DNA from: Polynucleobacter necessarius
GTDB taxonomy: Bacteria > Pseudomonadota > Gammaproteobacteria > Burkholderiales > Burkholderiaceae
Length of the DNA stretch: 64,000 nt
NCBI RefSeq assembly: GCF_900096765.1
Contig: NZ_LT615228.1
Span: 998,669-1,062,668 of the forward strand
Reading direction: 5' to 3'
Below the pieces are notes generated by a model that had not been told where the DNA came from, ran no database searches, and was given only the letters and a program-made list of their open reading frames with translations. Positions 8,238-59,550 of this stretch are shown here, piece after piece. Position 1 is the stretch's first letter. Every line of letters starts with the position of its first letter. Made by a program: the position numbers and the translations under genes.

Positions 8238-9971
8238 TTAGTGACCAGAAGCTCCTGAAGCACCAAAGCCTGTCTCTGAACGAACTTGCTGTGCAGCAAA
8301 TGCAGCACGTTCATTCTTAGCGTTTTCACTGTTGTCCAGTACAGAAAACAACCAAACCCCAACAAAGCCAATAGTGATTGAGAATAATGCTGGTGAAGAG
8401 TATGGGAACAAGGCAGACCCTTTTGGATTACCCAAAACCGCTTCCCATACAGATGGTGAAACTACGGTCAAGGCAACAGAAGATACCAAGCCCAAGAATC
8501 CGCCAATCACAGCACCTTTTGTTGTGCAGTTCTTCCAAAGCACTGACATAAACAAGACTGGGAAGTTGGCAGAAGCAGCAATCGCAAATGCTAAAGACAC
8601 CATGAAAGCAATGTTTTGCTTTTCAAAAGCGATGCCTAAGACCACAGCAATCACACCCAAAGTCAAAGTAGTCAAACGAGATACTTTTAACTCAGATGCG
8701 CTATCTGCATTACCCTTTTTAATCACCGTTGCATAGAGGTCATGTGAAACCGCTGAGGCACCTGACAAAGTCAAACCAGCAACAACAGCCAAAATGGTTG
8801 CGAATGCCACTGCAGAAATAAATCCATAGAAGACGTTGCCGCCCACAGTCTTCGCAACTAATACCGCTGCCATATTTGCAGTTCCAGCACCACCTTTGAT
8901 CACGCCCTTAGCAACATCTGCCATCTCTGGATTGGTCAAGACCAAGGTAATCGCACCAAAACCAATGATGAAAATCAAGATGTAGAAGTAGCCAATCCAA
9001 GTGGTTGCCCACAATACAGATTTACGAGCTTCTTTTGCATCAGGAACAGTGAAGAAACGCATCAAGATATGTGGCAAACCAGCTGTACCAAACATCAAGG
9101 CCATACCGAATGAGATTGCTGAGATAGGATCTTTAATGAAGCCGCCGGGACCCATGATGCTCAAGCCAGCCTTTACAGCCTCTTCTGGAGTTTTGCCTGC
9201 ACTAGTTGCAATAGCAGTTTTTACTTCAACCGCTTTTGCAAATAAAGCTTCTGGACTAAATCCATACTGAGCCAACACCATGAATGCCATGAAAGTAACG
9301 CCAGCCAAAAGTAAGCATGCCTTAATGATTTGTACCGATTTGTACCCAAGTAGTAGCCGTCATGCCGCCAAACAATACGTAAATCATCATCAAGCAACCA
9401 ACGATTACCACAGCCATCCAATACTCAAGACCGAAGAGTAACTTAATCAACTGGCCCGCACCAACCATCTGTGCGATCAAGTAAAAAGCAACTACAACTA
9501 AAGTACCGGAAGCAGCAAAGGCTCTAATTGGAGTTTGCTGGAAACGATAGCCAGCAACGTCAGCAAAGGTAAATTTACCTAAGTTACGAAGACGCTCTGC
9601 CATCAAGAAGGTAATGACTGGCCAGCCAAGAAGCCAATGGAGTAAATCAAGCCGTCATAACCATTGGCCATCACTGCAGCAGAAATACCCAAGAATGATG
9701 CAGCAGACATATAGTCACCAGCAATCGCTAAACCATTCTGAAAGCCAGTGATACCACCGCCGCCAGTATAGAAGTCAGCAGCAGATTTGGTTTTAGTTGC
9801 AGCCCACTTAGTAATGTAAAGAGTGCCGGCTACAAAAGCAGCAAACATACCAATCGCTACCCAATTAGTAGCTTGTTTCTCTACTTGACCCATATCAGCA
9901 CCAGCAGCAATTGCCAACGCCGGCAACACTAAAAGCGCTAAAGCACAAAATAATTTTTCAATGCGATTCAT
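8238..9971 (-). pseudogene. actP: Cation/acetate symporter ActP, broken by two indels
   Basis: Three frames give consecutive parts of one sodium:solute symporter. The first (9971-9603) has a signal-like start and ends near IYSIGFL. The second (from ~9606) carries [20 protein letters not shown]. The third (to 8238) carries the remaining membrane segments. The first break fits loss of 4 bp from a TTGGTTGG sequence near 9625 (expected [12 protein letters not shown]). The second is an exact 10-bp tandem duplication at 9327-9346 within TWVQI-IKA. Undoing both restores 575 residues. The gene sits 4 nt into the end of yjcH. Acetate uptake by this route is probably lost. Confidence 0.93.
9327..9346. 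repeat. 10-bp exact tandem duplication in actP
   Basis: The unit gatttgtacc occurs twice with no spacer. Deleting one copy restores the family sequence TTWVQIIKA and the reading frame, so the duplication is the mutation itself. Confidence 0.95.
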
Positions 9972-10276
9972 TTGACACTCTCTTTCAAAATTTCTGCAGT
10001 CAGAGTGTCATATTCACCATTTGCACGGCGAACATAGATACCTGTAATCAGAATCGTGAAAATAATTACGCCCATACCAATAGGAATTCCCAAGGTAATC
10101 ACGCCATCACCAATCGGCTGTGCCAAAAAAGCCTTATCAAAAGCAATTAAGGCAATGTATCCGTAATAGACGATAAACATCAAAATGCAGAGGGCCCAAC
10201 CAAAAGTGCTGCGCTTTCGCTTGAGCTCTTGGCATTTTGGATTTGCCTCTATGCGTGCAACGACAGCATCAGACAT
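9968..10276 (-). CDS. yjcH: DUF485 inner-membrane protein YjcH, partner of ActP
   Basis: Start placed at the ATG at 10276 ([22 protein letters not shown]), preceded by AAGGAGAAA; the frame is open further but the longer start lacks a ribosome site. 102 residues with two transmembrane segments (about 28-48 and 58-82). The family is almost always co-transcribed with actP, and here its stop overlaps the actP start. Intact although its partner is broken, so its retention is probably recent or passive. Confidence 0.85.
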
Positions 10277-10591
10277 GCATTTCTCCTTGAAAAAACAACC
10301 TATAAAGAATCTCAATTTTAATAAGCCCACACTGACAAAAGGGTTAGTTATGAAGTCATTTGGCTCAGTTTCTAGGGAAGATCCTATAAAGGTATTCCCT
10401 AAATCAGAAAACTACAGGGCAACTGCACTAGTTAAGTGCGCCCCAGATCAATATCGCTGCACTTTTTTAAGATTAGCCTTTTCTATTAAGGCCCGGGACT
10501 CTAAAAAACCTAGACACCTAAATGGTGCAAGCAATTTTCTAAATTGTGCATGCTGGTAGTTACTGGTATTGATGGGAACTTAAGATGAGCT

Positions 10592-10810
10592 ATGCGCATC
10601 AAAATTACTAAAAGCTTAGTGCTCAATGCTCAAATTCTGGATACAGAGAATATTCCAGAGGCCCTTTTCCCAGAAGGGGAGTATGTAGCCAATCTCACCC
10701 CAGACAGAAAGATTGAGGTCATTAATACCAAAAAAATTAAGGCCCTTTTTTCATTCTCCCAGTTTAGGGATAAGGTCTCTCAGGGCGATTTTGTGGTAGT
10801 TGAAGCCTAA
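10592..10810 (+). CDS. Small hypothetical protein
   Basis: 72 residues, soluble, no recognised domain. The sequence has normal-looking composition (MRIKITKSLVLNAQILDTENIPEALFP...) and ends 4 nt before the convergent neighbour. The 260 bp before it (10331-10591), shared with divergent yjcH, hold no gene I can support. Function unknown; may be a genuine lineage-specific protein. Confidence 0.45.
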   Translation: MRIKITKSLVLNAQILDTENIPEALFPEGEYVANLTPDRKIEVINTKKIKALFSFSQFRDKVSQGDFVVVEA

Positions 10811-10814
10811 AACC

Positions 10815-11192
10815 CTAGTGATCTAAATCTAAACTTTGAATCAAGCTGGCAAGCTTAACCACCGACTCAAAGGCATTAGAACTGCTAGCCTCTACATCGA
10901 GATTTTCCCAATTAAATTCCAAAGAGAAGTGTGCTGATTCAATAATGAGCTCATAACTGGATGAAGCTTTATGGTTTGAATTTAAAGAGTGCTCTTCAGT
11001 AATTGGAACCTTCACTACACCGATAGTATCTAAGAGTAGCCGTACCTCAGAATCAGAAAGCTCCCTGCTATGCAAGACATCATCTGTACGCTTCACCGAA
11101 ATTTTAGAGACCTCATCAATCACGACTTCATATTGATTAAGCCCTAGATCAAACCAAACAGTTAGTTCGAGTGCTATCGGATAGGTTTTCAT
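10815..11192 (-). CDS. Hypothetical protein
   Basis: 125 residues, soluble, acidic, beta-rich in appearance, with no signal peptide or known motif. It begins directly after the stop of the upstream 80-residue gene (no spacer), so the two form an operon. Family not recognised. Confidence that it is coding rests on the clean frame, the tight spacing and ordinary amino acid composition. Confidence 0.6.
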   Translation of the reverse strand: MKTYPIALELTVWFDLGLNQYEVVIDEVSKISVKRTDDVLHSRELSDSEVRLLLDTIGVVKVPITEEHSLNSNHKASSSYELIIESAHFSLEFNWENLDVEASSSNAFESVVKLASLIQSLDLDH

Positions 11193-11432
11193 TTAATCCA
11201 CCTCATCGGCATGTAGTTCATCAAAGTGATTATGTTGGGGTTTGAGTTTTGCTTCTAACTGCACCCATTTGCTGTGCTGCGTGCGGTATAGACAATCTGC
11301 AGCATGGTTTTCTAATAAGCCAAAAATAATCGTTGTAGGAATCTTGCAATATGCGCAGCAATAAGCATGCTGATGCTCCTCAATTTTCTCTTGGGGATAA
11401 TCAATATAGAACGGCTTCACAAAACCTCCCAT
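11193..11432 (-). CDS. Small cysteine-rich hypothetical protein
   Basis: Start chosen at ATG 11432 (MGGFVKPFYIDYPQEK). 79 residues with a CCAYCK motif, several histidines and a later HAADC, which could bind a metal in a zinc-ribbon-like way. No known family recognised. It is immediately upstream of, and abutting, the 125-residue hypothetical gene. Confidence 0.55.
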   Translation of the reverse strand: MGGFVKPFYIDYPQEKIEEHQHAYCCAYCKIPTTIIFGLLENHAADCLYRTQHSKWVQLEAKLKPQHNHFDELHADEVD

Positions 11433-11566
11433 TAGACACAAGATTATTTGAAAACATCTTACACCCCATATTGGCTACTCCAGGATACTTATCTAAGTAA
11501 AAGTGCTGATGGGCTTTATTTTGGGTTTGTTTAGACTGAATCATTCAATATTCAGGTGAGTCCAAA

Positions 11567-12211
11567 ATGGTCTGGTTAGGTTTGGCGGTCTTTCTCTTTC
11601 TCTTTGCCATCTATAAAAGTCCGCCAAGCATATTTTCTAAACCACCTCTATCTTTTATGGCTTTAGCGGCCATCCTCTTTTTAACAATTGCGTGGCATGT
11701 TTCACCAACCCTACCAGGTCAAACACCTGGCAGATTCTATGGGCTCATTTTTCACTTTTATGGGGCGGCTTTACTTACTGCCATGTTTGGAGTGGCTATT
11801 GCACTCTCAATACTGTTTCCAGTTGCCTTATTAAGCGATTGTCTGATTCAAGGCAATTTAATAGAAGCGGCGCAACATTACTTAATGGTTTGCGTGTTAC
11901 CCGCTTGCTTTGCCTATCTCACTATTCAAGCAATCCAACGCTGGGTACCCAAACATCTTTTTGTATTAATCCTTGGTAATGGATACGTTGCCGCATTTCT
12001 TAGCGTAATTCTGTCGGGCATAACGTTATTAATTGGAAACCTGTTTATTAACGGCGGAGCAGCCCATATTGATTTAGAAGGCTGGCTTCTTGGTCTCATC
12101 ATCATTGCATTTATGGAGGGCTCTCTGTCAGAAATGCTTCTGGCGATTTTCCTCATCTTTAGACCAAACTGGGTAGCCACTTACAATGAAGATGCCTACA
12201 TGAGCCGATAA
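11567..12211 (+). CDS. CbiM-like energy-coupling factor transporter permease
   Basis: 214 residues, six to seven hydrophobic segments. The C-terminal EGSLSEMLLAIFLIFRPNWVATY pattern and the central GAALLTAMFGVAIALSILFPVAL resemble the CbiM/ECF substrate-specific permease superfamily (PF01891-like). An AGGTGAG ribosome site precedes the ATG. No ATPase component is adjacent and no cobalamin riboswitch boxes are seen upstream, so the transported substrate is unknown. Confidence 0.65.
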   Translation: MVWLGLAVFLFLFAIYKSPPSIFSKPPLSFMALAAILFLTIAWHVSPTLPGQTPGRFYGLIFHFYGAALLTAMFGVAIALSILFPVALLSDCLIQGNLIEAAQHYLMVCVLPACFAYLTIQAIQRWVPKHLFVLILGNGYVAAFLSVILSGITLLIGNLFINGGAAHIDLEGWLLGLIIIAFMEGSLSEMLLAIFLIFRPNWVATYNEDAYMSR

Positions 12212-12238
12212 TGCTCTTTATCAACCAAATTAAAAATA

Positions 12239-12912
12239 TTGATGCTGCCCTGTATTGAACTTGAAACTGCCCCCAATCCAACCGCTGCCGTGATTTGGCT
12301 TCACGGCCTTGGCGCAGATGGCAACGATTTTGTACCTATTGTTCCCGAGCTTGATCTTCAGGGCTGCCCTGGCATTCGCTTTGTCTTTCCTAGCGCTCCT
12401 TCTATGCCGGTAACTGTCAATGGTGGTTATGTGATGCCTGCCTGGTATGACATCATCGGCAGAAACTTAACAGACCAAGAAGACGCTAAAGGTATTCACC
12501 GATCGGCGGCTGCCATTATTGAATTAATCAATCGTAAAAAAATCGCGATATTGCTTATAGCAATATTGTCTTGGCTGGCTTTTCACAAGGTTGCGCTATG
12601 GCTCTGCATATTGGCCTGCGCTTTCCTCACCAACTCGCCGGAATCATTGCGCTTTCGGGCTACCTGCCGCTTGCGATGAGATTAAGCATTGAAAAACATA
12701 GCGCCAATCAAACCACCCCCATCTTGATGGCTCACGGCACCTATGATTCAGTTGTAGTGCCCCAGCGTGCCGAAGCGTCATATGTTTTGTTGGAGAATAT
12801 GGGGTATCAGGTGAATTGGAATGAGTACCCCATGGAGCATTCCGTCAATCACGAAGAGCTCATGGATATCTCTCGTTTCCTCAGGCAGATTTTGATTCGC
12901 CCTGAGAAATAA
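12239..12912 (+). pseudogene. estB: Carboxylesterase/phospholipase (alpha/beta hydrolase), frameshifted
   Basis: The first frame (12239-12679) holds IWLHGLGADGNDF and the oxyanion region. The second carries the nucleophile elbow GFSQG, the Asp region (AHGTYDSVV) and catalytic His (MEHSVNHEE). The frame changes in an A7 run at 12536-12542. A single extra A would restore INRKKNRDIAYSNIVLAGFSQG and a 224-residue enzyme, the usual size. As written, the first product ends soon after the break and lacks the catalytic serine. A homopolymer sequencing slip is possible for this one. Confidence 0.87.
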
Positions 12913-12919
12913 GCTCGGT

Positions 12920-13708
12920 TTATAAAAGTCCGTCGGCAATCAATTTAATGCTCGCCACTAGTAAGAAAAAGCGCACGATGCGGTAATACCACTTCATTGA
13001 GATACGTTTGGCCAAGTAAAAACCAAAGTAAACACCTACTGGCACACAAGGCAATAACAATAGTGAAGTTGCAAATTGCCCAAAGTTTAGTAAGCCTAGA
13101 TAGGAGTATGGCCCTAACTTAGCAAAATTAATAATAGTAAAGAACACACCCAGGGTGGAGGTGTAAACCATTGGTAATAACTTTGCCCGAAGCATAAACA
13201 CGGTAATAGGTGGACCACCAATATGGGCAACAAAAGAGGTAAAACCTGAAGTTAAACCCATTGCCCTGCCAAGCCAAAGATAGGGCTTCGCTTCTTTAAA
13301 ATCAAAATATTCCATTGCCAAGTTCTGAATCAGAAAAAGCAAAGTAAAAATGCCGATCGAGAGAGTGAGTACTTTTGGCGTAATCGCAGTAAAGAAAATC
13401 ATCCCCAATAGCATGCCCAAAAAAGCTGGGGGAATAATCAATTTCAGAAGTTTCCAATCGGCATTTTTAATAAAGCGGCGCAGACCCACTAAATCCATGG
13501 CGATTAATAGTGGCAATAAGATTGCCAATGCTTCATTAATGCTCGATTGGCTGGCCATTAAAGGTAATGAGAGAATCCCAAGACCAGCTCCAAAGCCGCT
13601 CTTAGAGATGCCCATCAGAATCACACTAATGAATGCGCAAACAAAAAAGGTGAAGGAATGCGCATGAAAAGATTGAATAACTGGGTTTAATAGGGAATCA
13701 AGCATCAA
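12920..13708 (-). CDS. TauE/SafE-family membrane transporter
   Basis: 262 residues, about eight hydrophobic segments. The two related halves typical of TauE/SafE proteins are visible (GISKSGFGAGLGILSLPLMA near residue 33 and GLTSGFTSFVAHIGGPPITVFML near 150). Members export sulfite or sulfoacetate, or move other small organic anions. The substrate here is unknown. It is convergent with the broken esterase gene. Confidence 0.8.
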   Translation of the reverse strand: MMLDSLLNPVIQSFHAHSFTFFVCAFISVILMGISKSGFGAGLGILSLPLMASQSSINEALAILLPLLIAMDLVGLRRFIKNADWKLLKLIIPPAFLGMLLGMIFFTAITPKVLTLSIGIFTLLFLIQNLAMEYFDFKEAKPYLWLGRAMGLTSGFTSFVAHIGGPPITVFMLRAKLLPMVYTSTLGVFFTIINFAKLGPYSYLGLLNFGQFATSLLLLPCVPVGVYFGFYLAKRISMKWYYRIVRFFLLVASIKLIADGLL

Positions 13709-13791
13709 GAGATATTAACAACTAATTGTTCCGCACCCTGCGGTCTTGACCCTATCAGGCGAAACTACTGCAGCCACCTAGAAGCAAAAGA

Positions 13792-13813
13792 AAAGGGCTC
13801 CACCGAGCCCTTT
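13792..13813 (-). terminator. Terminator after the TRAP binding-protein gene
   Basis: On the minus strand AAAGGGCTC-GGTG-GAGCCCTTT forms a 9-bp stem followed by TCTTTTG, 20 nt after the stop of the TRAP gene. Confidence 0.8.
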
Positions 13814-13832
13814 AGCCACAAGAAAATCCCAA

Positions 13833-14915
13833 TCACAATTTTTTACTAAAGCTGTACTGAGCAAATGCCTGCTCTGCCACCCCAAACCACTGAGCCTCCA
13901 TATTTCTGAAGGCGCGATAATCATCAAATATCTTTTTAAACTGAGGGTTTTTAGCAGACTCTTCAGCGTATGTTTCTTGACTAGCCTTAAAGCAAGCATC
14001 CATGACTGAGGTATTAAATTTCCGTAATACGGCGCCGCTCTGCAAAAGACGTTGTAACGCGGGCGGATTCAGAGCGTCATATTTGGCGCACATATCAGTA
14101 TGAGCCTCAAAACAAGCCGCTTCCCATGCAGCTTGATAGGCTGGCGGCAAAGAGTCCCACTGCTTCTTATTGACCAAAAAAGATAGTCCTGCGGCACCCT
14201 CCCAGAATGCTGGGTAGTAATAATTTTTTGCTACTTTGGCCAGGCCCAATTTCTCGTCATCATAAGGCCCAACAAATTCCGCAGCATCAATAGTGCCTTT
14301 TTCAAGAGCTGAATAAATTTCGCCAGCTGGCAATTGCTGTGGGACAACCCCCAACTTTGCAAGCACCTGACCGGCAAAACCAGCAATGCGGAACTTCAGA
14401 CCCTTTAAGTCTTCTGGTGATTTAATTTCCTTGCGAAACCAACCTCCCATTTGTGTACCAGTTTGGCCGCCTAGGAAATTCACAATGTTGTAGCTCGCAT
14501 AAAGCTCACGCATTAACTTCATGCCGTTACCATGCAGCATCCAAGCTGATTGTTGACGCACGGTCATACCAAATGGCGCTGCGGTATCAAAAATAAAGGC
14601 ACTGTTTTTGCCCAGATAGTAGTAACTAGCGGTGTGACCACATTCCACGGTACCATTTTGCACAGCATCTAATACCTGAAGTGCTGGCACAACCTCTCCA
14701 GCAGCAAATACTTTGACGTTGAACTTGCCGTCAGTTGCTTTGCGCAAAGCATTGGCAAAAACTTCTGGCGTACCGTACAAAGTATCTAAAGATTTGGGGA
14801 AACTGGACACGAGACGCCAATTTAAGCTTGGCAAACTTTGAGCAATTGCCGGAGCACCTATCGCAGCGACACCAGCACCAATGGTTGCTTTCTTTAAAAA
14901 AGAACGTCTTTGCAT
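13833..14915 (-). CDS. TRAP transporter solute-binding protein (DctP family)
   Basis: Start at ATG 14915, with AGGAG 6 nt upstream; a GTG 3 nt earlier is too close to that site. 360 residues beginning with a Tat-type leader (MQRRSFLKKATIGAGVAAIGAPAIA), followed by the DctP fold with VECGHTASYYYLGKNSAF and AAEFVGPYDDEKLGLAKVAKNYYYPAFWEG. The substrate is probably an organic (oxo) acid, by family. The membrane subunits DctQ/DctM are not nearby, so it must act with a transporter encoded elsewhere. Confidence 0.87.
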   Translation of the reverse strand: MQRRSFLKKATIGAGVAAIGAPAIAQSLPSLNWRLVSSFPKSLDTLYGTPEVFANALRKATDGKFNVKVFAAGEVVPALQVLDAVQNGTVECGHTASYYYLGKNSAFIFDTAAPFGMTVRQQSAWMLHGNGMKLMRELYASYNIVNFLGGQTGTQMGGWFRKEIKSPEDLKGLKFRIAGFAGQVLAKLGVVPQQLPAGEIYSALEKGTIDAAEFVGPYDDEKLGLAKVAKNYYYPAFWEGAAGLSFLVNKKQWDSLPPAYQAAWEAACFEAHTDMCAKYDALNPPALQRLLQSGAVLRKFNTSVMDACFKASQETYAEESAKNPQFKKIFDDYRAFRNMEAQWFGVAEQAFAQYSFSKKL

Positions 14916-14952
14916 CACAATCTCCTTTTATTTTTTGGGTCAACTGTAAAAC

Positions 14953-16242: not shown

Positions 16243-16268
16243 GACCTAATAATAGCTAGAATATCAAC

Positions 16269-16892: not shown

Positions 16893-16911
16893 TTCTTGCC
16901 AGCGAAATATC

Positions 16912-16937: not shown

Positions 16938-16958
16938 CTTTTTGCATCTCCTTGCGCA

Positions 16959-21931: not shown

Positions 21932-22069
21932 TTTTAATCCTTAAACATCTTGTTAGCGTTTAATCCCGAGATGATTAATCAACGGACCTAACAGAGGATG
22001 TAGTTAAAACAATTTCACTAAACCAAAAAACCAAACTACTTATTCACAACTGCACACTAATAAAAGTAT

Positions 22070-22828
22070 TTACAGCGAGCGAAGAAATTGTTCATCTTCT
22101 CGGGTTAGCAACCCTTTAACTCTAGCCGACTCAATTAAGTCCGGCCGGAGTCTTAACGTCAACTCCAAAGACTTTTGCCGACGCCAATCCGCTATTTTAG
22201 CGTGATGTCCGCCCAAAAGCACGTCTGGGACCGATAAATTTTCATAAATTTCAGGTCTGGTGTAGTGTGGATAGTCCAAAAGACCATTCATAAAGCTATC
22301 TTGGGCAGCAGATTCACCATCCCCGAGGGCACCCGGAATCAAGCGAATTACCGCATCCATGATAGCCATAGCGGGAATTTCACCCCCAGAAAGCACAAAA
22401 TCCCCTATAGAAATCTGTAAATCGACGTTTCGATCTACAAAACGCTGGTCGACCGCCTCATAACGACCGCAAACTAAACTGATATTGCCGTACTCGAGAA
22501 TGTTGGCAGCTATTTGTTGGCTAAAACGCTCCCCTTGAGGTGCGAGCAGACAAATGGGGCCAGACTTCAGACCAGCTGCCTGATGGGCTGCCTTGATGCC
22601 CTCAACCGTATCCTCCAGGGGTTTGGCCATCATCACCATCCCAGGGCCTCCGCCATATGCACGATCATCGACTGTTTTACGGGGATCAGAGCAAAAATCA
22701 CGAGGGTTCCATAAATGCACGCTCGCTAAAGAGCTCGCTAAAGATTGTTCACAGGCGCGACCAGTGACACCCCACTGTGTAAGCGCAGAAAACATATCAG
22801 GAAATAAAGTAACTACATCAAAGCGCAT
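22070..22828 (-). CDS. trmD: tRNA (guanine-N1)-methyltransferase TrmD with 4-residue tandem insertion
   Basis: 252 residues. SPOUT-fold motifs are intact: DDRAYGGGPGMVMM, LVCGRYEAVDQR and SIGDFVLSGGEIPAM (the knot), plus GLLDYPHYTRPE. After VTGRACEQ the sequence reads SLASSLAS before VHLWNPRDF. Compared with E. coli TrmD there are four extra residues between GRA and the conserved Trp. They come from an exact in-frame 12-bp duplication at 22721-22744. TrmD makes m1G37, which prevents frameshifting, and is essential, so the altered protein is presumably still active. Confidence 0.96.
   Translation of the reverse strand: MRFDVVTLFPDMFSALTQWGVTGRACEQSLASSLASVHLWNPRDFCSDPRKTVDDRAYGGGPGMVMMAKPLEDTVEGIKAAHQAAGLKSGPICLLAPQGERFSQQIAANILEYGNISLVCGRYEAVDQRFVDRNVDLQISIGDFVLSGGEIPAMAIMDAVIRLIPGALGDGESAAQDSFMNGLLDYPHYTRPEIYENLSVPDVLLGGHHAKIADWRRQKSLELTLRLRPDLIESARVKGLLTREDEQFLRSL
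22721..22744. repeat. 12-bp exact tandem duplication in trmD (in frame)
   Basis: The unit gctcgctaaaga occurs twice without a spacer. It encodes a repeated four-residue unit in SLASSLAS near TrmD residues 30-38. Confidence 0.95.
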
Positions 22829-25010: not shown

Positions 25011-26803
25011 CTAGAAACACTCTGCCTCTAAAGCATTAGTGGAGTGACCGCCCTCAACAATAGAGGTTGCTAGAGCCCCAGCTTGCGGCAAAAGGTTTTC
25101 CGCAAAGAAGCGTGCTGTAGCAATCTTAGTATTGTAAAAAAACAGGATCACTGTCACGCAAACGCTCTGCAGCCAATACGGCACGAGCCATTTGCCAGCC
25201 ACCGAGTACTAAACCCGATAAACGCAAATAAGCAAAGCTTCCCGCATAGACAGACCGCTTTGATATCTGTTTTGGCGTTAGTAAGAATATAAGCAACCGC
25301 TTGATCAAAGGCGGCACGCCCAGCACTCAATTGTTTGAGGACTGCTTTCGCATCAGCGCTACCGCTAGCGGCCAACTCTTTTTCGACATCAGCAATTTTT
25401 TGAGAAAGCACTTTTGCAGTTACCCCACCATCGCGGACTGTTTTTCTACCCACAAGATCATTTGCCTGAATAGCAGTAGTACCTTCGTAAATCGTCAAGA
25501 TGCGAGCATCGCGATAGTGTTGTGCAGCGCCAGTTTCTTCAATGAAGCCCATGCCACCATGAACTTGCAAACCCAAGCTGGCAACCTCAATCGACATCTC
25601 TGTTGAAAAGCCTTTGACGATAGGCACCAAGAACTCATAAATCGCTTGATTGGCTTTGCATGCCGCTTCATCAGGCGCAGCATGTTGCGTATCATAGGCA
25701 GCAGCAGCGTAATAAGCCAAGGCACGAGAAGCCTCTACATAGGCGCGCATTGTCATCAACATACGCTTCACATCTGGCTGATGAATAATCGCAACCGGGC
25801 CAGCAGAACCCGCTAAGTCTCGGCTTTGAATACGATCTTTGGCATACTGCACCGCCTTTTGATAAGCTCGTTCTGCAACTGCAATGCCTTGCATACCCAC
25901 CGCGAAACGAGCAGCGTTCATCATGACGAACATATACTCGAGACCACGGTTCTCTTCGCCAACCAAATAGCCAATCGCCCCACCATGATCACCAAATTGC
26001 AGCACTGCTGTTGGGCTTGCCTTAATACCGAGTTTATGTTCAATTGATACGCAGTGAACGTCATTGCGCTCCCCCAAAGAACCATCAGCATTGACTAAAA
26101 ACTTAGGCACTACAAATAAAGAAATCCCTTTAACACCTTCAGGCGCATCTGGGGTTCTAGCCAAGACTAAATGCACAATATTTTTGGCCATATCATGCTC
26201 ACTATAGATGATGTAGATCTTGGTACCAAATATTTTGTAAGTGCCATTACCTTCAGGCACCGCTTTAGATCGCACCATTGATAAATCAGAACCAGCTTGG
26301 GGCTCGGTTAAACACATGGAGCCGGTCCATTCGCCAGAGATCATATTGGGAACAAATTGCTCTTGTAGCTCAGGACTCGCAGCCGTGAGCAAAGCCTCAA
26401 TAGCGCCATCAGTGAGCATGGGGCACAAAGCAAATGACAGACTTGCAGAGTGAACCATCTCAAAGCAGGCAGTCGCAATTAACTTGGGTAGCCCTTGACC
26501 ACCAAATTCTGCAGGATGAATGACGCCTTGCCAGCCTGCAGCCGCAAACTGCTCAAACGCCTCTTTAAAACCTGGTGATGTCGTAACCACTCCATCTTGC
26601 AATGAGCTTGGCTTTTGATCACTTGGCCAATTGAGGGGTGCAATCACATCTTGATTGAATTTAGCCGACTCCTCCAAAATCGCTGGGGCCAAATCGACAT
26701 CAGCACCAGCCTGCGCATAAGAGGGATATGCCACCACATCCGCTAGCCCCGCTAACTCATTCATTGCGAACAACATATCTTTCACAGGGGCTAGGTATGG
26801 CAT
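25011..26803 (-). pseudogene. Acyl-CoA dehydrogenase (DmdC/FadE-like), C-terminus broken by two indels
   Basis: The first ~515 residues are intact acyl-CoA dehydrogenase (CLTEPQAGSDLSMVRSKA, GDHGGAIGYLVG, LQVHGGMGFIEETGAAQHYRDARILTIYEGTTAIQANDLVGRK). The frame is then lost at KTDIKAV by an exact 4-bp duplication (25248-25255), and again near 25131-25142 by one extra base in or beside a 7-bp A/T run. Correcting both gives 595 residues, the normal size of this large subfamily, ending TARFFAENLLPQAGALATSIVEGG. The C-terminal helical domain is replaced by ~30 wrong residues. Confidence 0.9.
25248..25255. repeat. 4-bp tandem duplication in the acyl-CoA dehydrogenase gene
   Basis: agac is present twice in a row (GTCTGTCT on the coding strand). 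Removing one copy joins KTDIKAV to YAGSFAYLRLSGLVLGGWQ in frame. Confidence 0.85.
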
Positions 26804-46139: not shown

Positions 46140-47236
46140 TAAGCCCGCCTTTCAAAATCACGCATAAATTCCACCAAAGCTTTGACGCCTTCAATAGGCA
46201 TTGCATTGTAAATACTGGCACGCATGCCACCTGCAGCCTTATGACCACGCAATGCCACTAAACCAGCAGCGTTTGATTGAGTCAAGAACTCTGCATTGAG
46301 GTTCTCATCTTTTAAGAAGAAAGTCACATTCATCCGCGAGCGATATTCTTTAGTGACTCGATTTTCATACAAACTACTCTGATCTAAGAAGTTGTAGAGC
46401 AAATTCGCTTTTTCTTGATTGCGCTTTTCAATTGCTTTTACGCCACCTTGTTTTAACAACCACTTAAATCCAAGACCAGCCATATAGATTGAAAAAGTTG
46501 GCGGGGTATTAATCATTGACTGCGTATTTGCCTGCACAGACCAATCCCAAATGGTAGGCGTAATAACCATGCTATGACCAAGCAAGTCCTTGCGCACAAT
46601 CACGATTGTTACGCCAGATGGGCCAATATTTTTTTGGGCACCACCAAACCAAACGGCGCACTTGCTGACATCTATTTCTTTAGAAAGAATGTTGCTTGAA
46701 ATATCAGCTACTAGCGGAGTGTCACCCACATCTGGAACATCTGGAAACTCCACGCCACCAATCGTTTCATTAGCGCAATAGTGAACATACGCTGCATCGC
46801 TGGATAACTGCCAAGTCGATCTGGCTGGAATCGTATTGAATTTTTCAGTTGCAGAAGACGCCGCTAAATGAGCGTTGCCATATTTCTGCGCTTCCTTAAA
46901 TGACTTTTCAGACCAAACTCCAGTCACCAAAAAATCTGCCCTAGGGCCATTCTTGGCCAAAGGCATAAGATTCATCGGAATAGCCGCATTTTGACCAAGG
47001 CCGCCACCTTGTAAAAGCAAGATTTCATAGGTCTCAGGAATATTCATGAGAGCGCGAAGATCTTTTAAAGTTTCTTCATACACTTCCATGAATTCTTTGC
47101 TGCGATGGCTAATCTCCATCACGCTAGTACCAAGTCCACGCCAATTAAGCATTTCATCAGCCGCCTGTTTCAACACCTCTTCAGGCAAAGTAGCAGGCCC
47201 CGCTGCGAAATTAAAGATGCGGCGGTCAAAAGTCAT
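46139..47236 (-). CDS. serC: Phosphoserine aminotransferase
   Basis: 365 residues. FNFAAGPATLPEEVLKQA, the PLP lysine in WFGGAQKNIGPSGVTIVIVR, and RSRMNVTFFL are typical. Second step of serine synthesis, also used in pyridoxine synthesis. 33 nt after gyrA, 1-nt overlap with pheA. Confidence 0.96.
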   Translation of the reverse strand: MTFDRRIFNFAAGPATLPEEVLKQAADEMLNWRGLGTSVMEISHRSKEFMEVYEETLKDLRALMNIPETYEILLLQGGGLGQNAAIPMNLMPLAKNGPRADFLVTGVWSEKSFKEAQKYGNAHLAASSATEKFNTIPARSTWQLSSDAAYVHYCANETIGGVEFPDVPDVGDTPLVADISSNILSKEIDVSKCAVWFGGAQKNIGPSGVTIVIVRKDLLGHSMVITPTIWDWSVQANTQSMINTPPTFSIYMAGLGFKWLLKQGGVKAIEKRNQEKANLLYNFLDQSSLYENRVTKEYRSRMNVTFFLKDENLNAEFLTQSNAAGLVALRGHKAAGGMRASIYNAMPIEGVKALVEFMRDFERRA

Positions 47237-50722: not shown

Positions 50723-50736
50723 TTCTTTTTACTTGT

Positions 50737-52184: not shown

Positions 52185-52254
52185 GGATAAGCCAAAAGAT
52201 ATCAGCAATTGCTGGCCATCAGCCTTAAAATAGAACCTCTTATGCATAAACTCT

Positions 52255-52613: not shown

Positions 52614-52620
52614 TATTAGA

Positions 52621-52660
52621 AAATAGAAGCCCTTGATTTTTAAGGGATTTCTATTTTTTA
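52621..52660 (+). terminator. Terminator of ssrA
   Basis: AAATAGAA and CCCTT pair with AAGGG and TTCTATTT (one bulge), followed by a T run, 7 nt after the CCA end of tmRNA. Confidence 0.8.
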
Positions 52661-52709
52661 AACTTTCAAAAATATCTTTTTAAAAAAAAGCCTGTTTTTG
52701 CCCTAGTTA

Positions 52710-52731
52710 GACAGCTTTTGGACAGCTTTTG
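52710..52731. repeat. 11-bp exact tandem repeat downstream of ssrA
   Basis: gacagcttttg occurs twice without spacer, in non-coding DNA 97 bp beyond the tmRNA end. It could be another copy of the short-duplication event seen elsewhere in the window, or an integrase-arm type repeat left from an island inserted at ssrA. Confidence 0.8.
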
Positions 52732-53375
52732 GAAACCAAATCCCTGACAATGTTGAAGGCATTACAGATTTACAGCTCCAGCCAACTTTTTAGCCAACTT
52801 CTTAAAGATAAAGATTTCAGATGGGCCAAAAGATGAGGGTTCTTTTGAATAGACTATGAGAATGCCAATGTTTTTGCCATCGGCTACTAAAGGCACGGAA
52901 AGGCTACTTCTGATACCAAATAATCTTGCATTTGAAACCCAAGGACCAAAGTTAGACGCCATTTCCGTATCAGACATTACGACAGGCTCTCCAGATCGAA
53001 GTGCAATGCCCGTTGGACCAGATCCATAAACGCTATTAGGGTCCCAACTCAAAGATAACGACTTGCCATAGCCTTTTGCCTCTCCATCAACCGCCACCAT
53101 TTGCAGCGATTTATTAAATTCAGTAGTTAAGAGTCCGACATAAACGCAAATATATAAATCCTGAGAGGCGATAGCATGACAAACGCCTTCTGCAATTTCT
53201 CTAAACGACTTGCCAACCTCTACGACTTTCTCGGCATCAGCAAAAGCAGTAATTGCACTTCTTTGCGCCTCAAGATAGGCCTGACTTAGAAGGTCTGATG
53301 CAATCAAAATAGCTTTTGGATCATTGTGATCAAAACTGGGATCTTCAAAACATTTTTGTAGATAGAAAGAAAGTT

Positions 53376-53397
53376 CTTCGTAATACCTTCGTAATAC
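53376..53397. repeat. 11-bp exact tandem duplication between HTH and GAF parts
   Basis: cttcgtaatac twice in a row (GTATTACGAAG on the coding strand). Removing one copy fuses the HTH frame to the GAF frame through KYYEELSFYLQ. Confidence 0.95.
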
Positions 53398-53629
53398 TTA
53401 ACTGTCTTAGCAGAAGGGACTGGTAACTTGACACGACGGTCCTCGCTATCCTGATAGTTAATAAGACCAAGTTCAAATAAACCTCGTATGTGATGCTGGA
53501 GTGTAGATTGAGAACCTAATTCACTATTTGAAGCAATTAAGTCACCTACTGACACCAAAAGATCTTCGCTCCAATTGAGCATTATCTTCTCAAGCAAGCC
53601 TTCGGAAATGCAGTCTAATTTTTTCCTAC

Positions 53630-53651
53630 CAACGAATAGACAACGAATAGA
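53630..53651. repeat. 11-bp exact tandem duplication in the N-terminus of the HTH-GAF gene
   Basis: caacgaataga twice in a row. Removing one copy joins YYDLFVGRKKLDC in frame back to an ATG at 53707. Confidence 0.95.
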
Positions 53652-53868
53652 TCGTAGTACTGTTTTAATTTTACAAAACGAAGTACTGAATTTAATTTAG
53701 AAGACATTAGTTAACCCCAACAAAACAACCTCGCATTTAATATTAACTTTTCATCGGCCTTGCGTAAATTTGTCTTCAGACATGAATTAGTATTTAGGCG
53801 CCTTAATGAAGGTATATTTAATCAATAATCTTTATAAGCACTATTTTAGATAATCAGATCTTTTAGAT

Positions 53869-54671
53869 CTACAAGGCTTTTTGATTTGGATCAAATGCAA
53901 TCCCGCTATTCTTGATAATCTCAGATGAGGCTTCTTCAAGACTCCAGCTTTTTTATATGACCTATCGCTAATGAGAGCATCGAACACATCTGCCACACTC
54001 ATAATCCTTGCTTCTAGCGGTATATCCTCATGACTTAACTTAAGCCCCGAGGATAGCCGGACCCATTCCACTTTTCGTGATGAGCTCCTGCAACTTTTAT
54101 AGCGGTTGGAATCAAATCTGACTCAGCGTCCTCCGATTTTGCGGTCGATAAAATTGACTCGCCAATCATGGCATGAGTATAAATCAATCGACGCTCATCC
54201 TCTGTTAAGCGCCCTTCTTTTTTTTAGGATATGGTCTGGAATACCCACCTTCCCCAAGTCATGTAGTGGTGCGACTTGCACAAGTTTATCAATCTGAGCA
54301 TCAGTTAAAAGTTCTACGTGATAGCCCATATTTCTTAAACGAGTCGCAAGGACTCTTACATACTTTTGCGTCCGAATAATGTGACTTCCTGTTTCATTAT
54401 CTTTTGCTGTAGCTAGGGCATTGAGAGCCGAGAGCATCTGATTTTCACGTTCTGTAATCGTATCAAGATAACTATTCATTAGCTTAGTTACAGTCCACCA
54501 TACGACTGGAATAGTAATTATTGAGAGCATGATTACATCAAGAAGCATATTAAGCAGAAAAGGCATGCTCTCTAGATTTCTTAGGATTAGCATGATCAGC
54601 GCTTCGCCAAGGATAATGCTAGCAATAAGCACATAATTTAGACGCTTAATTGGATTTAACTTTACCGCCAT
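53869..54671 (-). pseudogene. HD-GYP domain membrane protein with three frameshifts
   Basis: Start at ATG 54671 with AGGAG 6 nt upstream. Two N-terminal membrane helices precede the HD-GYP domain (ETGSHIIRTQKYV, APLHDLGKVGIPDHIL, then in other frames HAMIGESIL, AGAHHEKWNGSGYP, LEARIMSVADVFDAL). Breaks: one extra A in an A8 run (54218-54225), one lost G in a G4 run (54045-54048), one lost base near 53946 (KKAWSLEEAS expected). Corrected length 267 residues. Intact relatives hydrolyse cyclic di-GMP. Three independent lesions mean old loss of function. Confidence 0.87.
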
Positions 54672-54888
54672 CAGAACTCCTACTAATTCAACAATTTCAA
54701 CAGAAATCACAAATTCGTTCTGCCGAAGCAATGATCATATGCCCCAAATTAGCGGTTCGGATTTTAGTAAAAAGAGGAGGAATTGGAAAATTCTAAACTG
54801 CTATTTAAATCTACTGATAAATTCGATAATTAAACTTAAGACAATATTTTGGCTGCTTAGTTGTAGAGCCCAACAAAATCAAGAATAT

Positions 54889-54918
54889 CTGCGGGTTCGA
54901 ATTCCGCCCTCTCCACCA
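54889..54918 (+). tRNA. 3' fragment of a tRNA-Ser-like gene
   Basis: The sequence has a T-arm (GCGGG-TTCGAAT-TCCGC, with one G-U pair), a 7-nt 3' acceptor strand CCTCTCC, a discriminator A and encoded CCA. The matching 5' strand GGAGAGG, the D-arm and the anticodon arm are not present in the 150 bp upstream. CCTCTCCACCA with a 5' GGAGAGG partner is typical of proteobacterial tRNA-Ser. A hairpin follows directly, as for a native tRNA gene. It is either a deletion remnant or the right attachment site of an element. Confidence 0.65.
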
Positions 54919-54922
54919 ATTA

Positions 54923-54958
54923 AAGCAAACTCCTCTGATGTTTTAGAGGGGTTTGCTT
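54923..54958. terminator. Terminator hairpin after the tRNA fragment
   Basis: AAGCAAAC-TCCTCT-8 nt-AGAGGG-GTTTGCTT forms a 14-bp stem. It serves the plus-strand tRNA remnant and overlaps the repaired stop of the convergent methyltransferase gene. Confidence 0.8.
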
Positions 54959-56139
54959 ATCCAAGCTCGGTTTTTAATCCTAGGCGCCAGAGAGAAGTCA
55001 CCTCAGCAGATCTTGCTGAATGCAGAGCGTCTGATTCATCAAATACTTTGTGATGGGTTGGTTTGGTATCAATACGACCAAGAACCCTTAAGTCAGCGAC
55101 TTCAATCCAATTGAGCAACTCATCGCGCGCGCAAACCTAAATGCTCTGCTAAATCCGAGAGGATGAGCCAACCCTCACCACCCTCTAAAAGATGGTTGTT
55201 AAGGCCATTCAAGAATCCTTTGAGCATCTGACTATCCTGATCATAGATGGCATGCTCAAGTGCAGAGCTTGGGCGCGCTGGCAACCAAGGTGGATTACAA
55301 ACAACTAGAGATGCTTTACCTTCAGGAAATAGATCGGCCTTCAAAATTGTGATGTGATTTTCAAGATGAAAGCGAGCAACATTTGCTTGCGCACAAGTGA
55401 TAGCACGCTCATTTAAATCGGTAGCAATGATCTTCTTCACCTCTCGCATTGCCAGAACCACCGACAATACGCCTGTGCCTACGCCGATATCAAAGGCGAT
55501 AGAGTTTTTTTGGAGCGCAGTTGGTAGTGGCGCCTTAAGAACAAGTTCAATATATTCGCCTCGTATCGGTGAAAACACTCCATAGTGCGGATGAATACGA
55601 ATCTCTTCATCATCTCTAGCCAGAATGGGAACACCCTTCTTGCGCCATTCATGGGCGCTAATCACACCTAGCAACTCTCGCAGAGAGATGACATAAGAGC
55701 TCTCTTGTTTCCCATAAGCCTCGAAGCAGGCCCGTGCTACATCAGGTGCGCGCCTTAAAGAGATCGTGTGATCAGCATTAATTTGAATCAGTAGCATTCC
55801 CAAAATGCGGGCCCGCTGTGACTGACTCAGACGATGCATATTAAAAATATCGAGAGGGCTCTTTGATTTTTCTTTGGTAAATCTATATGCCCGCGTTGAT
55901 TTTTTAGAGGGTTTGTCAATCCTACGGACCATGGCCTGCAAAAGCTGTCTCGCATTCTGAAAGTCGCCACGATAAAGCAGGGCATTGCCTTCGCATGCAA
56001 GACGATAAGCTACATCTGCTGTCAGAGTGTCGTCAACGACCTGGATTTTTTGGTGAGGAGCGATACCGTTTTCTGAATGCCATCGAGCAGAGCACAGTTG
56101 TTCGCCTTCATGCCATTGAAGCGTTTGTATTGTGGTCAC
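54957..56139 (-). pseudogene. Class I SAM-dependent methyltransferase, frameshifted near the C-terminus
   Basis: The frame is intact for ~339 residues, with the SAM motif FDIGVGTGVLSVVLA, ATDLNERAITCAQANV and the N5-glutamine/adenine-type motif CNPPWLPARPSS. After HLGLRAR it stops. The next frame continues DELLNWIEVADLRVLGRIDTKPTHHKVFDESDALHSARSAEVTSLWRLG. A 2-bp (CG) loss from the GC run at 55124-55132 explains it. Corrected length 394 residues. The catalytic motif is present, but the last ~55 residues are missing. Target RNA or protein unknown. Confidence 0.85.
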
Positions 56140-56992
56140 CTAGGAAATCACAAAACGATTATTTTGATAATCATCAATGGCCTGCTCAATTTCTGCGCGA
56201 GTATTCATGACAAAGGGGCCGTACTGCACAATAGGCTCATGCAAAGGTAAAGCAGCTAGCACGATAAATTGCGCGCCAGCTAAGCTTGCTTTGGCTTTGA
56301 GCAGATCGCCTTCGCCCAGAACAATTGCAGCCTGCTTCGGAGCCGACTTCAAGGGATCGCCAATCTCAAGGCCACCCTCATAAATATAGATAAAAGCATT
56401 GAGTTCTTCGGAAATCGCTTGTTCAAACTCGCCATTGGGCGGTAATTGCACGTCAAAAAATAATGGGGCTGTAGTGATTCCTTGGATCGGACCAGTAACC
56501 GTCTTGCCATCTGCCGCATAGGTGCCCGCAATAATTTTGACGGAGCCACCATTAGTCAAGGCTTGCTTTGGAATATCTTCGACTTGGATATCTTGATATC
56601 CGGCTGGCTTCATTTTTTCTTTAGCTGGCAGATTGATCCAAAGCTGAAAGCCGCGCATGGCGCCACTGACTTGTTGCGGCATTTCTGAGTGAATGATGCC
56701 GCGCCCTGCCGTCATCCATTGCACTCCACCCGTCTTCAAGTGCCCTTGATTACCCAAGTGATCCTCATGCAATATAGCCTTCAAGCATGTAAGTAACCGT
56801 CTCAAAGCCCCGATGCGGATGAGCCGGAAACCCAGCTACGTAATCATTCGGATCGTTCGATGAAAACTCATCGAGCATCAAAAAAGGATCAAGCCGTAAT
56901 TGCTGCTGACCACCTAAACTGCGACGCAATTTCACACCAGCACCATCAGATGTAGCTATCCCCGGAATAATGGTCTAAATATTGCGAATCAT
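56140..56992 (-). pseudogene. Pirin family protein with premature stop and 2-bp deletion
   Basis: The natural start is ATG 56992 (MIRNI), followed at codon 6 by TAG. Beyond it the frame reads IIPGIATSDGAGVKLRRSLGGQQQLRLDPFLMLDEF and AGFPAHPHRGFETVTYMLEGY. It is then lost where TATATAT appears shortened by 2 bp; the rest (LHEDHLGNQGHLKTGGVQWMTAGRGIIHSEMP) is in another frame. Corrected length 284 residues. Pirins are cupin proteins with quercetinase-like or co-regulator roles. Two separate lesions mean it is dead. Confidence 0.88.
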
Positions 56993-56999
56993 CTTACTC

Positions 57000-57551
57000 T
57001 TAAGCTGGCGGATAGTCTTCTGGGTTGACGTCCAAGGCAATCAAAAAGCGTGACACCATATTGTATGCTGCAATCACGGTGACTAATTCAACCGTATCGG
57101 TGCTACCCAAAGCCTTTTGCAAACGCTTCATTAACTCTGGATCAACCTTGATGTTACGAGTCATCTGAAAGGTAAGATCGGCAGCATCGTTTTCCACTGC
57201 TGAGAAAAGATTACGCGGAAAGCTTGCTTGACCAATTAATCGAATTGCTTGAACCTGCTCTTCAGTGCCACCTGCTTTTTTAAAGGGTGGCGCATGGTGA
57301 AAAAATTCATACTCGGCACCATTCAAAACTGCTACGCCGCACATTGCCAACTCACGCAACTTCGGATTCAGCGAAAGATTGTTGCGAATCTCACCAATGA
57401 AATGATTCCAGCCTTCAGCAATCGGCACGCTATGCAAAAGCATGCGATCCAAATTGATGAATTGGCCACCGCGTCTTTTACGAATCGCAGCAACCAACTC
57501 AGCTGGCTCCGCTAAATCCATGGGCTGATAAGGAATTAAACGTTCAAACAT
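57000..57551 (-). CDS. Carboxymuconolactone decarboxylase/AhpD-like family protein
   Basis: 183 residues, all-alpha AhpD/CMD type: FINLDRMLLHSVPIAEGWNHFIGEIR, then LRELAMCGVAVLNGAEYEFFHHAPPFKKAG. The redox CxxC of AhpD proper is absent, so a decarboxylase or hydrolase-like role is more likely; substrate unknown. Lies 9 nt downstream of a TctC gene and 8 nt upstream of the pirin start, so part of one minus-strand operon. Confidence 0.75.
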   Translation of the reverse strand: MFERLIPYQPMDLAEPAELVAAIRKRRGGQFINLDRMLLHSVPIAEGWNHFIGEIRNNLSLNPKLRELAMCGVAVLNGAEYEFFHHAPPFKKAGGTEEQVQAIRLIGQASFPRNLFSAVENDAADLTFQMTRNIKVDPELMKRLQKALGSTDTVELVTVIAAYNMVSRFLIALDVNPEDYPPA

Positions 57552-57560
57552 ATGGACTTT

Positions 57561-58574
57561 CTATTGGCCAGTTTCTTTAATATTGTTTTCAATCACAAAC
57601 TTGCCCCAGATCGCAATTTGCTTACCGATGAAATCACGCAAAGTCTCTGGAGATCCGCCGACGATTTCGATGCCTTGCGCTTTGAATTTGGCGGCAACTG
57701 CAGGCGATTTGAGAACTTTATTCAGAACCTTATTCATTGAATCCACTATAACGGGGGGTGTTTTCCCTGGAGCGAGAACAGCCCACCATGCAGGCGCACT
57801 AAACCCAGGGAAACCGCTTTCAGCAATCGTTGGAACATTCGGCAATGCTGGAGATCTCTTGGCTGTAGTAATAACCAAAGGCACAACACCACCACTTTCA
57901 ATATGAGGCTTGACCAAAAATTCAGAACCTACTGCTAACTCAACCTGGCCACCCAAAACATCCTGCATCAAAGGCCCCCCACCACGATAAGGAATGTGAT
58001 TCCAGTCAAAGCCAGCTTGCTTAGCCAAGCGAGCCATCGCCAAATGACCTAAGCTGCCAATACCAATCGATCCGTAGCTAAATTGCTTACCAGTTTTAGA
58101 CAGCTCGACCAATTGTTTGAAGCTAGTAATACCGGATTTTTTACTGGCCACCAACACCATTGGTGAAGTCCCCACCAAGATGACCGGTGAGATGTCTTTA
58201 ATGGTGTCATAAGGAAGCTTGTCTTTGAGGCTTGGATTGACTCCATGAGTATCAAAAACGACTGCAAATGTGTAGCCATCAGGATCAGAACGCGTCATTG
58301 CAGAAGTGCCAATCACTCCAGATGCTCCACCAACGTTTTCTACGATGACGTTTTGCTTAAGTTCGCCCTGCAAGGCAGGCGCTAAAATACGGGCAACCTG
58401 ATCAACGGAGCCCCCTGGAGGGAAGACGGCGATCAAACGAATCGGTTTTTGCGTAGGCCAAGCCCCAGAGGCGGCTGTTTGAGCTAAAGCTAGGTTGCTG
58501 ATTCCCGCCGCCACCAATACAGTCAAGAGTGTTTTAAAACAGGCTCTAGCGGCCATTTTTGATAAATCCTGCAT
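57561..58574 (-). CDS. Tripartite tricarboxylate transporter binding protein (TctC/Bug family)
   Basis: 337 residues. A signal peptide ends near residue 33 (LALAQ-TA). Bug-family features: KPIRLIAVFPPGGSVDQVARILAP, IVENVGGASGVIGTSAMTRSDPDGYTF, and VQFSY-type GSIGIGSLGHLAM followed by HIPYRGGGPLMQDVLGGQVEL. AGGAGA precedes the ATG. No TctA/TctB is adjacent. Probably binds a carboxylate; ligand not predictable from sequence. Confidence 0.88.
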   Translation of the reverse strand: MQDLSKMAARACFKTLLTVLVAAGISNLALAQTAASGAWPTQKPIRLIAVFPPGGSVDQVARILAPALQGELKQNVIVENVGGASGVIGTSAMTRSDPDGYTFAVVFDTHGVNPSLKDKLPYDTIKDISPVILVGTSPMVLVASKKSGITSFKQLVELSKTGKQFSYGSIGIGSLGHLAMARLAKQAGFDWNHIPYRGGGPLMQDVLGGQVELAVGSEFLVKPHIESGGVVPLVITTAKRSPALPNVPTIAESGFPGFSAPAWWAVLAPGKTPPVIVDSMNKVLNKVLKSPAVAAKFKAQGIEIVGGSPETLRDFIGKQIAIWGKFVIENNIKETGQ

Positions 58575-58669
58575 GGATTGTCTCCTTTTACTTTTAGTTA
58601 GGCCTTTAGATTACCACCCCCAGAGGCTGTTTGCTCGATAATATGGGGGCTTGCCTAATGAGAGAAACC

Positions 58670-59440
58670 ATGAAGTCTATTTTGAATATCGCAGCCTATT
58701 TATTTGTAAGTCTAGACGGCTTGCCAGAGTTGCGCGCCAAAATACTCGAGCAATGCAATACGAGAGAGCTCAAAGGCACCATTTTGCTCACAGGTGAAGG
58801 CATCAATATGTTCCTTGCAGGCAAACCAGATGCATTGCGAGGATTTTTAGATTGGTTACGCACCGACCCCCGTTTTGCGCCTCTAGAGGCTAAGGAGAGT
58901 TGGTCCGATGATCAGCCCTTCAAAAAGATGCTGATCAAGCTAAAGAATGAAATTATTCGCATGAATCATCCAACGATTCAGCCAAAAAAGGGTCGCGCCA
59001 ATTTTATTTCTCCTAAAAAATTACGAGAATGGCTTGATCGCGGCACAGATGACCTGGGTCGTCCAGTAGTCATGGTTGATACTCGGAATGCTTTTGAAGT
59101 GGATTACGGCACCTTTGAAAATGCCTTACATTTCAATATCGAGAAATTTACGGAATTTCCAGCTGCAATTTCTGCCCACAAAGAAGAGTTGGCCGACAAA
59201 ACTCTAGTCAGTTTTTGTACCGGCGGCATCCGTTGTGAAAAGTCTGGTCTTTATATGCGTGAAATTGGCATGGAACACAGCTACCAGCTTGAAGGCGGCA
59301 TTCTGAAGTACTTTGAAGAGGTAGGCTCTGCGCACTACCAAGGAAGCTGCTTTGTATTTGACGAGCGCGAAGCCCTTGAACCCAATTTGGACTCAATCCC
59401 TATAGAGCGCTCAATCCGCAAAAAACTCAAGGCGGTCTAA
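58670..59440 (+). CDS. trhO: tRNA uridine hydroxylase TrhO (rhodanese-like)
   Basis: Start at ATG 58670 (MKSILNIAAYLFVSL); the frame extends 39 nt further without a better site. 256 residues: N-terminal domain with ELKGTILLTGEGINMFLAG, then a rhodanese domain with active-site loop SFCTGGIRCEKSGLYM. TrhO makes 5-hydroxyuridine at tRNA position 34 in an oxygen-dependent way. Divergent from the TctC gene. Confidence 0.9.
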   Translation: MKSILNIAAYLFVSLDGLPELRAKILEQCNTRELKGTILLTGEGINMFLAGKPDALRGFLDWLRTDPRFAPLEAKESWSDDQPFKKMLIKLKNEIIRMNHPTIQPKKGRANFISPKKLREWLDRGTDDLGRPVVMVDTRNAFEVDYGTFENALHFNIEKFTEFPAAISAHKEELADKTLVSFCTGGIRCEKSGLYMREIGMEHSYQLEGGILKYFEEVGSAHYQGSCFVFDEREALEPNLDSIPIERSIRKKLKAV

Positions 59441-59522
59441 GAAACCCACCACCACCTTTACTTGCTACAAATAGTAAAATTGTCAGGCTGTTTACATTAA
59501 CAAAAATAAACTGGACCTGAAG

Positions 59523-59550
59523 ACATGTCTAAAACCACATGTCTAAAACC
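59523..59550. repeat. 14-bp exact tandem duplication over the start codon of a TctC gene
   Basis: acatgtctaaaacc occurs twice without spacer, so there are two ATG TCT AAA ACC starts 14 nt apart. Only the second (59539) is in frame with the protein. Confidence 0.95.

Follow-up and report, generated by a model that had tools for sequence, protein, structure and literature searches.

Short, exact head-to-tail duplications of about 9-22 bp are denser in the Polynucleobacter genome examined in this study (G000, a single contig of 1,825,583 bp) than in any other of the 12 genomes sampled. The genus was assigned from the best-listed named relatives of its trmD gene. In the window, meaning the whole stretch of 64,000 nucleotides at positions 998669-1062668 of this genome, the original prediction had listed six exact, spacer-free duplications of 10-14 bp and one of 4 bp, and all six (6/6) as well as the 4-bp repeat were found in place. 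We consider it possible, at a rough probability of 0.42, that the class consists of young insertions in which about 9-22 bp were copied once, head to tail, through homology-independent local re-synthesis, and that this is a minor process of the whole genus which relaxed selection exposes and which is raised about 3-4-fold here. Relaxed selection explains much of the visibility of the class, and an extra 3-4 fold remains.

Density and size of the duplications

The sample of this genome, 864 kb in all, comprised the window and 40 stretches of 20 kb each, and the scan took exact adjacent copies of a primitive unit with a period of 10-60 bp. The window overlaps one of the stretches (L153) by 1332 bases, and no event lies in the overlap. 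The 41 matches became 39 after two overlapping matches of a 15-bp lysine-alanine array (L161) were merged. An A/T-rich 13-bp repeat of 2.6 copies (L204) was excluded from the frame and junction counts, which leaves 38 sites, and L161 and L204 were both wholly excluded from the size table of this genome; a comparable 2.7-copy repeat in the relative G085, with a 7 bp extension, was retained in the counts of that genome. The array itself (L161:7571-7663) lies in a short open frame and is lysine-alanine-rich by eye.

The relatives were classed as intact (G113, G103, G185, G047, G107 and G032; 920 kb) or decaying (G082, G085, G095, G017 and G016; 680 kb), and their choice was not random. For G113, G103, G185 and G047 the sequence came from around the counterpart of the window, with G113 then sampled evenly, and G107, G082, G085, G017, G095, G016 and G032 were hand-picked as single-contig genomes; sampling of G085, G095 and G017 was extended after their decay became apparent. 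G016 was put among the decaying genomes by coverage with open reading frames (ORFs; 0.78) alone, with 0/4 of its orthologues broken. One stretch of G113 (L237) carries 2406 N, which makes the length of the intact set effectively about 2.4 kb lower and its Markov expectation slightly off; the 56 near-exact matches counted for the intact relatives were spoiled by these N and hence are unused. The comparison set contains no very close relative, the best DNA match being 80% identical over trmD-rimM and 85% identical over the actP region.

The original prediction had proposed scanning the genome and its relatives, polarising each repeat by alignment and comparing the sizes with simulated sequence. 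The scan recovered 39 two-copy exact repeats with a period of 10-22 bp in this genome, so the excess seen in the window extends across the sampled 864 kb. The intact relatives had 5 repeats, all of 10-11 bp, and the decaying relatives had 10 repeats of 10-18 bp. The density in this genome is 8.3 times that of the intact set (binomial p = 2e-8) and 3.1 times that of the decaying set (p = 5e-4). No such repeat was found in four 50-kb stretches (200 kb) of E. coli K-12. When chance was simulated with a Markov-1 model in five runs of 400 kb, the runs gave 0, 0, 1, 1 and 0 exact repeats with a period of at least 10 bp, so that the six in the 64-kb window greatly exceed chance, as the original prediction had claimed. 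In non-gene sequence, 25 repeats of at least 10 bp were seen in 156 kb of this genome (0.3 expected), compared with 2 in 157 kb of the intact relatives (0.8 expected) and 7 in 180 kb of the decaying relatives (0.2 expected). Per non-ORF base, the decaying relative G095 has 36 per Mb and this genome 379 per Mb, and the spread among genomes is still wide after normalising by non-ORF sequence.

The commonest lengths are 10-12 bp (median 12 among those of at least 10 bp), which agrees with the earlier remark that the units lie near one helical turn, except that the range runs up to 22 bp. Sizes of 4-7 bp showed no clear excess over the intact relatives (7 bp: 15 vs 8). Repeats of 8 bp were high both in this genome and in the intact relatives (12 and 9), and those of 9 bp numbered 6 vs 0, the numbers at 7-9 bp being small. 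Four short duplications (10, 9, 11 and 11 bp) lie within about 700 bp at L150:630-1345, where two aligned relatives are shorter, and a similar cluster occupies 52710-53651 of the window.

Direction of the changes and reading frame

Where the duplications can be aligned they appear mostly to be derived insertions. When 41 sites (the 39 and two long ones described below) were searched with blastn, 12 had a spanning alignment in relatives, and at 11 of these 12 a relative was shorter by about one unit, the gap sometimes being split; the remaining site, L143:16176, was ambiguous. The relatives are mostly single-copy where alignable. Alignments covering 174 kb contained 4 tandem-duplication insertions of at least 10 bp in this genome and 0 in the intact relatives. 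Allowing up to one mismatch gave 22 adjacent copies in the 13-40 bp range, of which 18 were exact (the lysine-alanine array counts in both groups), and this near-identity fits a recent origin. As judged from the copies, the duplications may be young, or older ones may have been removed by precise deletion; the earlier suggestion that the process is still at work cannot be told apart from a fast disappearance of old copies.

Within the window, the 10-bp duplication at 9327..9346 lies between two open pieces of an actP-like (acetate-permease) gene on the minus strand. It is net 10 bp shorter in 11/11 aligned relatives (there were 12 strong matches, and the twelfth yielded no locus), and the flanking coding frames are offset by the shift expected from 10 bp. 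The 12-bp duplication at 22721..22744 is inside trmD, in frame, and adds 4 residues; 111/111 spanning relative loci are net 12 bp shorter, some of them being one species fetched twice. Two 11-bp duplications, at 53376..53397 and 53630..53651, lie in the same decayed GAF-type regulator gene. In each case a single distant homologue (G002, 64% identity) has net 11 bp less, with the gap split at the former, and both sites show the predicted frame shift, the coding signal at the latter being weak. At 59523..59551, where a TctC-type binding-protein gene begins, lies a 14-bp duplication plus 1 bp; only G113 (locus L165) is shorter there, by about 14 bp, and the other relatives are ambiguous. The 11-bp duplication plus 2 bp at 52710..52733, between the tmRNA and the GAF-domain gene, had no spanning alignment. 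The 4-bp duplication at 25248..25255, in an acyl-CoA-dehydrogenase-like gene, is inserted with respect to the four relatives shown; its place in the set has no meaning by count, as 518 repeats of 4 bp were seen vs 491 expected in the 156 kb of non-gene sequence. Among the other, shorter exact repeats of the window, the 9-bp one at 46728 and the 7-bp ones at 10620 and 42304 are unchanged in length in the 3 or 4 relatives shown, and the 8-bp repeat at 22020 is shared with one relative, three others having one base less. For the most part, these shorter repeats are not recent duplications.

The reading frame gives a second line of evidence. A site was counted as deep in an ORF when it lay at least 40 bp inside an ORF of at least 100 aa. 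By this rule 10/38 sites are deep in ORFs, although 81% of bases are, and 9 of those 10 have a period divisible by three. A first test of frame (Fisher p = 1e-4) was partly circular because frame-breaking insertions shorten ORFs, and it was superseded by a random-placement null of 1200 in-silico duplications classed in the same way, of which 35% of the frame-breaking and 82% of the in-frame ones land deep in ORFs. Frame-breaking duplications were deep in ORFs in 1/24 cases compared with the null of 0.35 (p = 4e-4), and in-frame duplications in 9/14 compared with 0.82 (p = 0.09). Frame-breaking events seem to be removed where genes matter. Because frame-breakers are rare inside genes, the duplications look like mutations sieved by selection, not like assembly noise.

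The original prediction held that the repeats are themselves the mutations. In agreement with this, 11/15 frame-breaking sites with a one-strand coding signal on both sides shift as the unit predicts, where one third would do so by chance; one A/T-rich site was dropped from this test, several of the coding scores are weak, and 4/15 sites did not shift as predicted. The open pieces at the sites match actP, a GAF-domain regulator (two sites), a sigma-70-type factor, an outer-membrane efflux protein, a LysR regulator and others.

Junctions, repair machinery and rival explanations

Junctions were pooled from this genome, G085, G095 and G017 (48 events). The extra junction match was 0 bp in 30 events, 1 bp in 10, 2 bp in 6, 3 bp in 1 and 7 bp in 1, and the mean junction homology was 0.67 bp, compared with 0.67 by chance. 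This lack of homology beyond chance argues against ordinary slippage and is as fill-in of staggered ends would leave. Re-pairing of a strand end with a repeat close by should, in models of that kind, leave more junction homology than was seen. The units had been said to share no sequence, and indeed no clear common motif was found in them and none was strong enough to trust. At the boundaries, A or T at position -2 in 45/60 cases was discarded as a motif, being too weak after many comparisons. The folding energy of the sites equals that of controls, with no unusual folding.

Two long exact tandem duplications were set apart from the short class by their junction homology. One is of 121 bp (L202:6528-6769) with 10 bp of homology, and the other is of 81 bp (L196:15442-15603) with 5 bp, within long open frames in repeat-rich sequence.

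Under local re-synthesis, two nicks or broken ends would arise on opposite strands with an offset of 10-20 nt, the offset would be re-synthesized by fill-in or strand displacement, and the ends would then be joined by a putative route that needs no base pairing. The process would be minor and present in the whole genus, with its strongest showing here, where genes are being lost and many sites would now be neutral. The extra 3-4 fold in this lineage could come from raised formation or from slower loss of copies. A similar outcome is known in mammalian cells, where small tandem duplications form by fill-in at offset ends and are strongly reduced without Ku80, and duplications with junction homology are a different type, a Polymerase-theta product (PMC8355091). 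The duplications described here are likewise small and head to tail, and their junctions likewise have no homology. However, the mammalian ones form at breaks with protruding complementary ends and depend strongly on Ku80 and on primase-guided fill-in (PMC8355091), whereas Ku is missing from this genome, in which no break has been seen. Because Ku is missing, the duplications are not assigned to the mammalian-type class despite the similar outcome.

Several observations weigh against re-synthesis at offset ends. Ku was not found in this genome or in 18 other members of the genus (19/19; the control matched in Bacillus subtilis), and the ATP-dependent ligase domain was not found in 10/10 genomes; with these, the known bacterial route of end joining is missing. 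The joining of staggered breaks therefore would have no known enzyme here, and the staggered-break fill-in of the original prediction keeps the support of the junctions while its joining step appears to have no known machinery in this genome. Breaks, overhangs and intermediates cannot be seen in sequence. No relative could be aligned at 26/41 sites. The lower size limit is soft, with an excess over chance from 8 bp and over intact relatives from 9 bp, and rates vary outside clear decay too, as G032, classed as intact, has 2 repeats in 60 kb. Uniqueness to this lineage has partial support: the class is denser here, but the decaying relatives have about a third of the density, and since the class is not private to the lineage, part of the signal is due to relaxed selection. 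The broader claim, that bacteria without Ku or ATP-dependent ligase refill and rejoin offset strand ends independently of homology and leave exact duplications of 10-20 bp, with the process raised in this lineage, is considered doubtful.

Ordinary replication slippage is somewhat unlikely. The growing strand would step back 10-20 nt and be re-extended in a genus without MutS, and relaxed selection would reveal the products. Slippage duplications in bacteria are likewise head-to-tail copies, the class occurs in relatives, this genome is decaying, and the two long duplications do have junction homology. MutS domain V was not found in 10/10 Polynucleobacter genomes (G000 and nine relatives), which agrees with PMC5644125, where mutS and mutL are absent from 20 genomes of PnecC, a group to which this genome may or may not belong, and present in two species outside PnecC. 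However, the junctions of the 10-22 bp class have homology only at chance level, slippage should favour shorter units yet the shortest sizes (4-7 bp) show no clear excess over the intact relatives, and decaying G095 is far sparser per non-ORF base. It is also improbable that relaxed selection and slow loss act alone, with an equal rate of formation across Polynucleobacter and much recently freed sequence in this genome. Decaying relatives do show the same class with the same sizes and junctions, and frame-breakers are depleted from gene interiors here, but the non-gene counts (25 in 156 kb vs 7 in 180 kb in the decaying set) and the wide spread that persists after non-ORF normalisation do not fit equal formation.

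If short contig overlaps had been joined unmerged during assembly, exact tandem copies would result, and the copies are almost all exact. A protein look-up of TrmD (best 120 of 279 matches, the query itself absent) did not reveal an independent instance of the trmD duplication, as an artefact would predict. However, an artefact would ignore reading frame, decaying relatives carry the same class in their own assemblies, and the 10/38 sites deep in ORFs fall well below the 81% of bases there, a comparison whose frame-breaker bias the random-placement null corrects. This explanation is very improbable. Equally little weight, or slightly less, goes to scars at target sites where a mobile element has come and gone. 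Some insertion sequences do duplicate 9-14 bp of their target, but such scars need a constant length whereas the lengths here are 10-22 bp, the copies touch with zero bases between them, and the DDE_Tnp_1 transposase was not found in 6/6 genomes (other transposase families were not searched). Loss of the 5'-nuclease of PolA or of RecJ was rejected as the cause in this lineage; the PolA 5'-nuclease domain is in an open frame in 10/10 genomes and RecJ is present in 10/10, other repair genes lying outside this search.

How fast genes die in decaying genomes, those of symbionts included, depends partly on small insertions, which are usually ascribed to slippage. Here, by comparison with relatives, one can measure a separate size class whose junctions lack homology, in a group in which searches for MutS and Ku both came back empty, and how bacteria without Ku make such duplications becomes directly testable. 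If local re-synthesis is the source, the decaying genomes of Polynucleobacter would naturally record homology-independent refilling and rejoining. A literature search confined to titles and abstract openings, with most subscription papers outside it, returned no report of this duplication class in bacteria.

Genome decay and the affected genes of the window

By tblastn, 29/170 orthologues (17%) are broken in this genome, compared with 12/334 in G113, G047, G103, G185 and G107, 0/23 in G032, 16/68 in the decaying relatives G082, G085, G017 and G095, and 0/4 in G016. The genome is decaying as in symbionts. Boscaro and colleagues have reportedly described genome decay in ciliate-associated Polynucleobacter. 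This genome resembles those in its small size, its many broken genes and the presence of several decaying lineages in one genus; unlike in those, no host is shown here. The duplications are a minor cause of gene loss: of the 29 broken orthologues 19 have a frame junction and 10 have stops only, and this class accounts for one of the 19 frame junctions (L150), most of the rest resembling small indels, with several alignments ambiguous. One frame break (L149:8308-8326) adjoins a homopolymer run of 13 bases, as a lack of mismatch repair might lead one to expect.

The broken actP-like symporter of the window consists of a C-terminal piece (8238..9308, minus strand; ActP model positions 219-552) and an upstream piece (9322..9606, minus strand; SSF domain positions 59-148). 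The acyl-CoA-dehydrogenase-like gene (25154..26803, minus strand) is broken in its 3' part. Remains of the GAF-domain regulator form two open pieces (52762..53597, minus strand; domain matches), with an HD-domain piece nearby (54195-54731), and the TctC-type binding-protein gene, matched by Pfam TctC, occupies 59539-60534.

The trmD gene (22070..22828, minus strand; TIGR00088 272 bits, cut-off 195) is usually required for growth, and its frame stays open at 252 aa with the in-frame duplication within it. TrmD is 248 aa long in 104 of the 120 homologues listed, which are cluster representatives. The sole other TrmD of 252 aa among them lacks the extra residues at the duplication site (three of the 120 were inspected). 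Just downstream of trmD, the 8-bp repeat at 22020-22035 lies in a stretch that is about 90% identical across four relatives, and it is possibly a conserved element.

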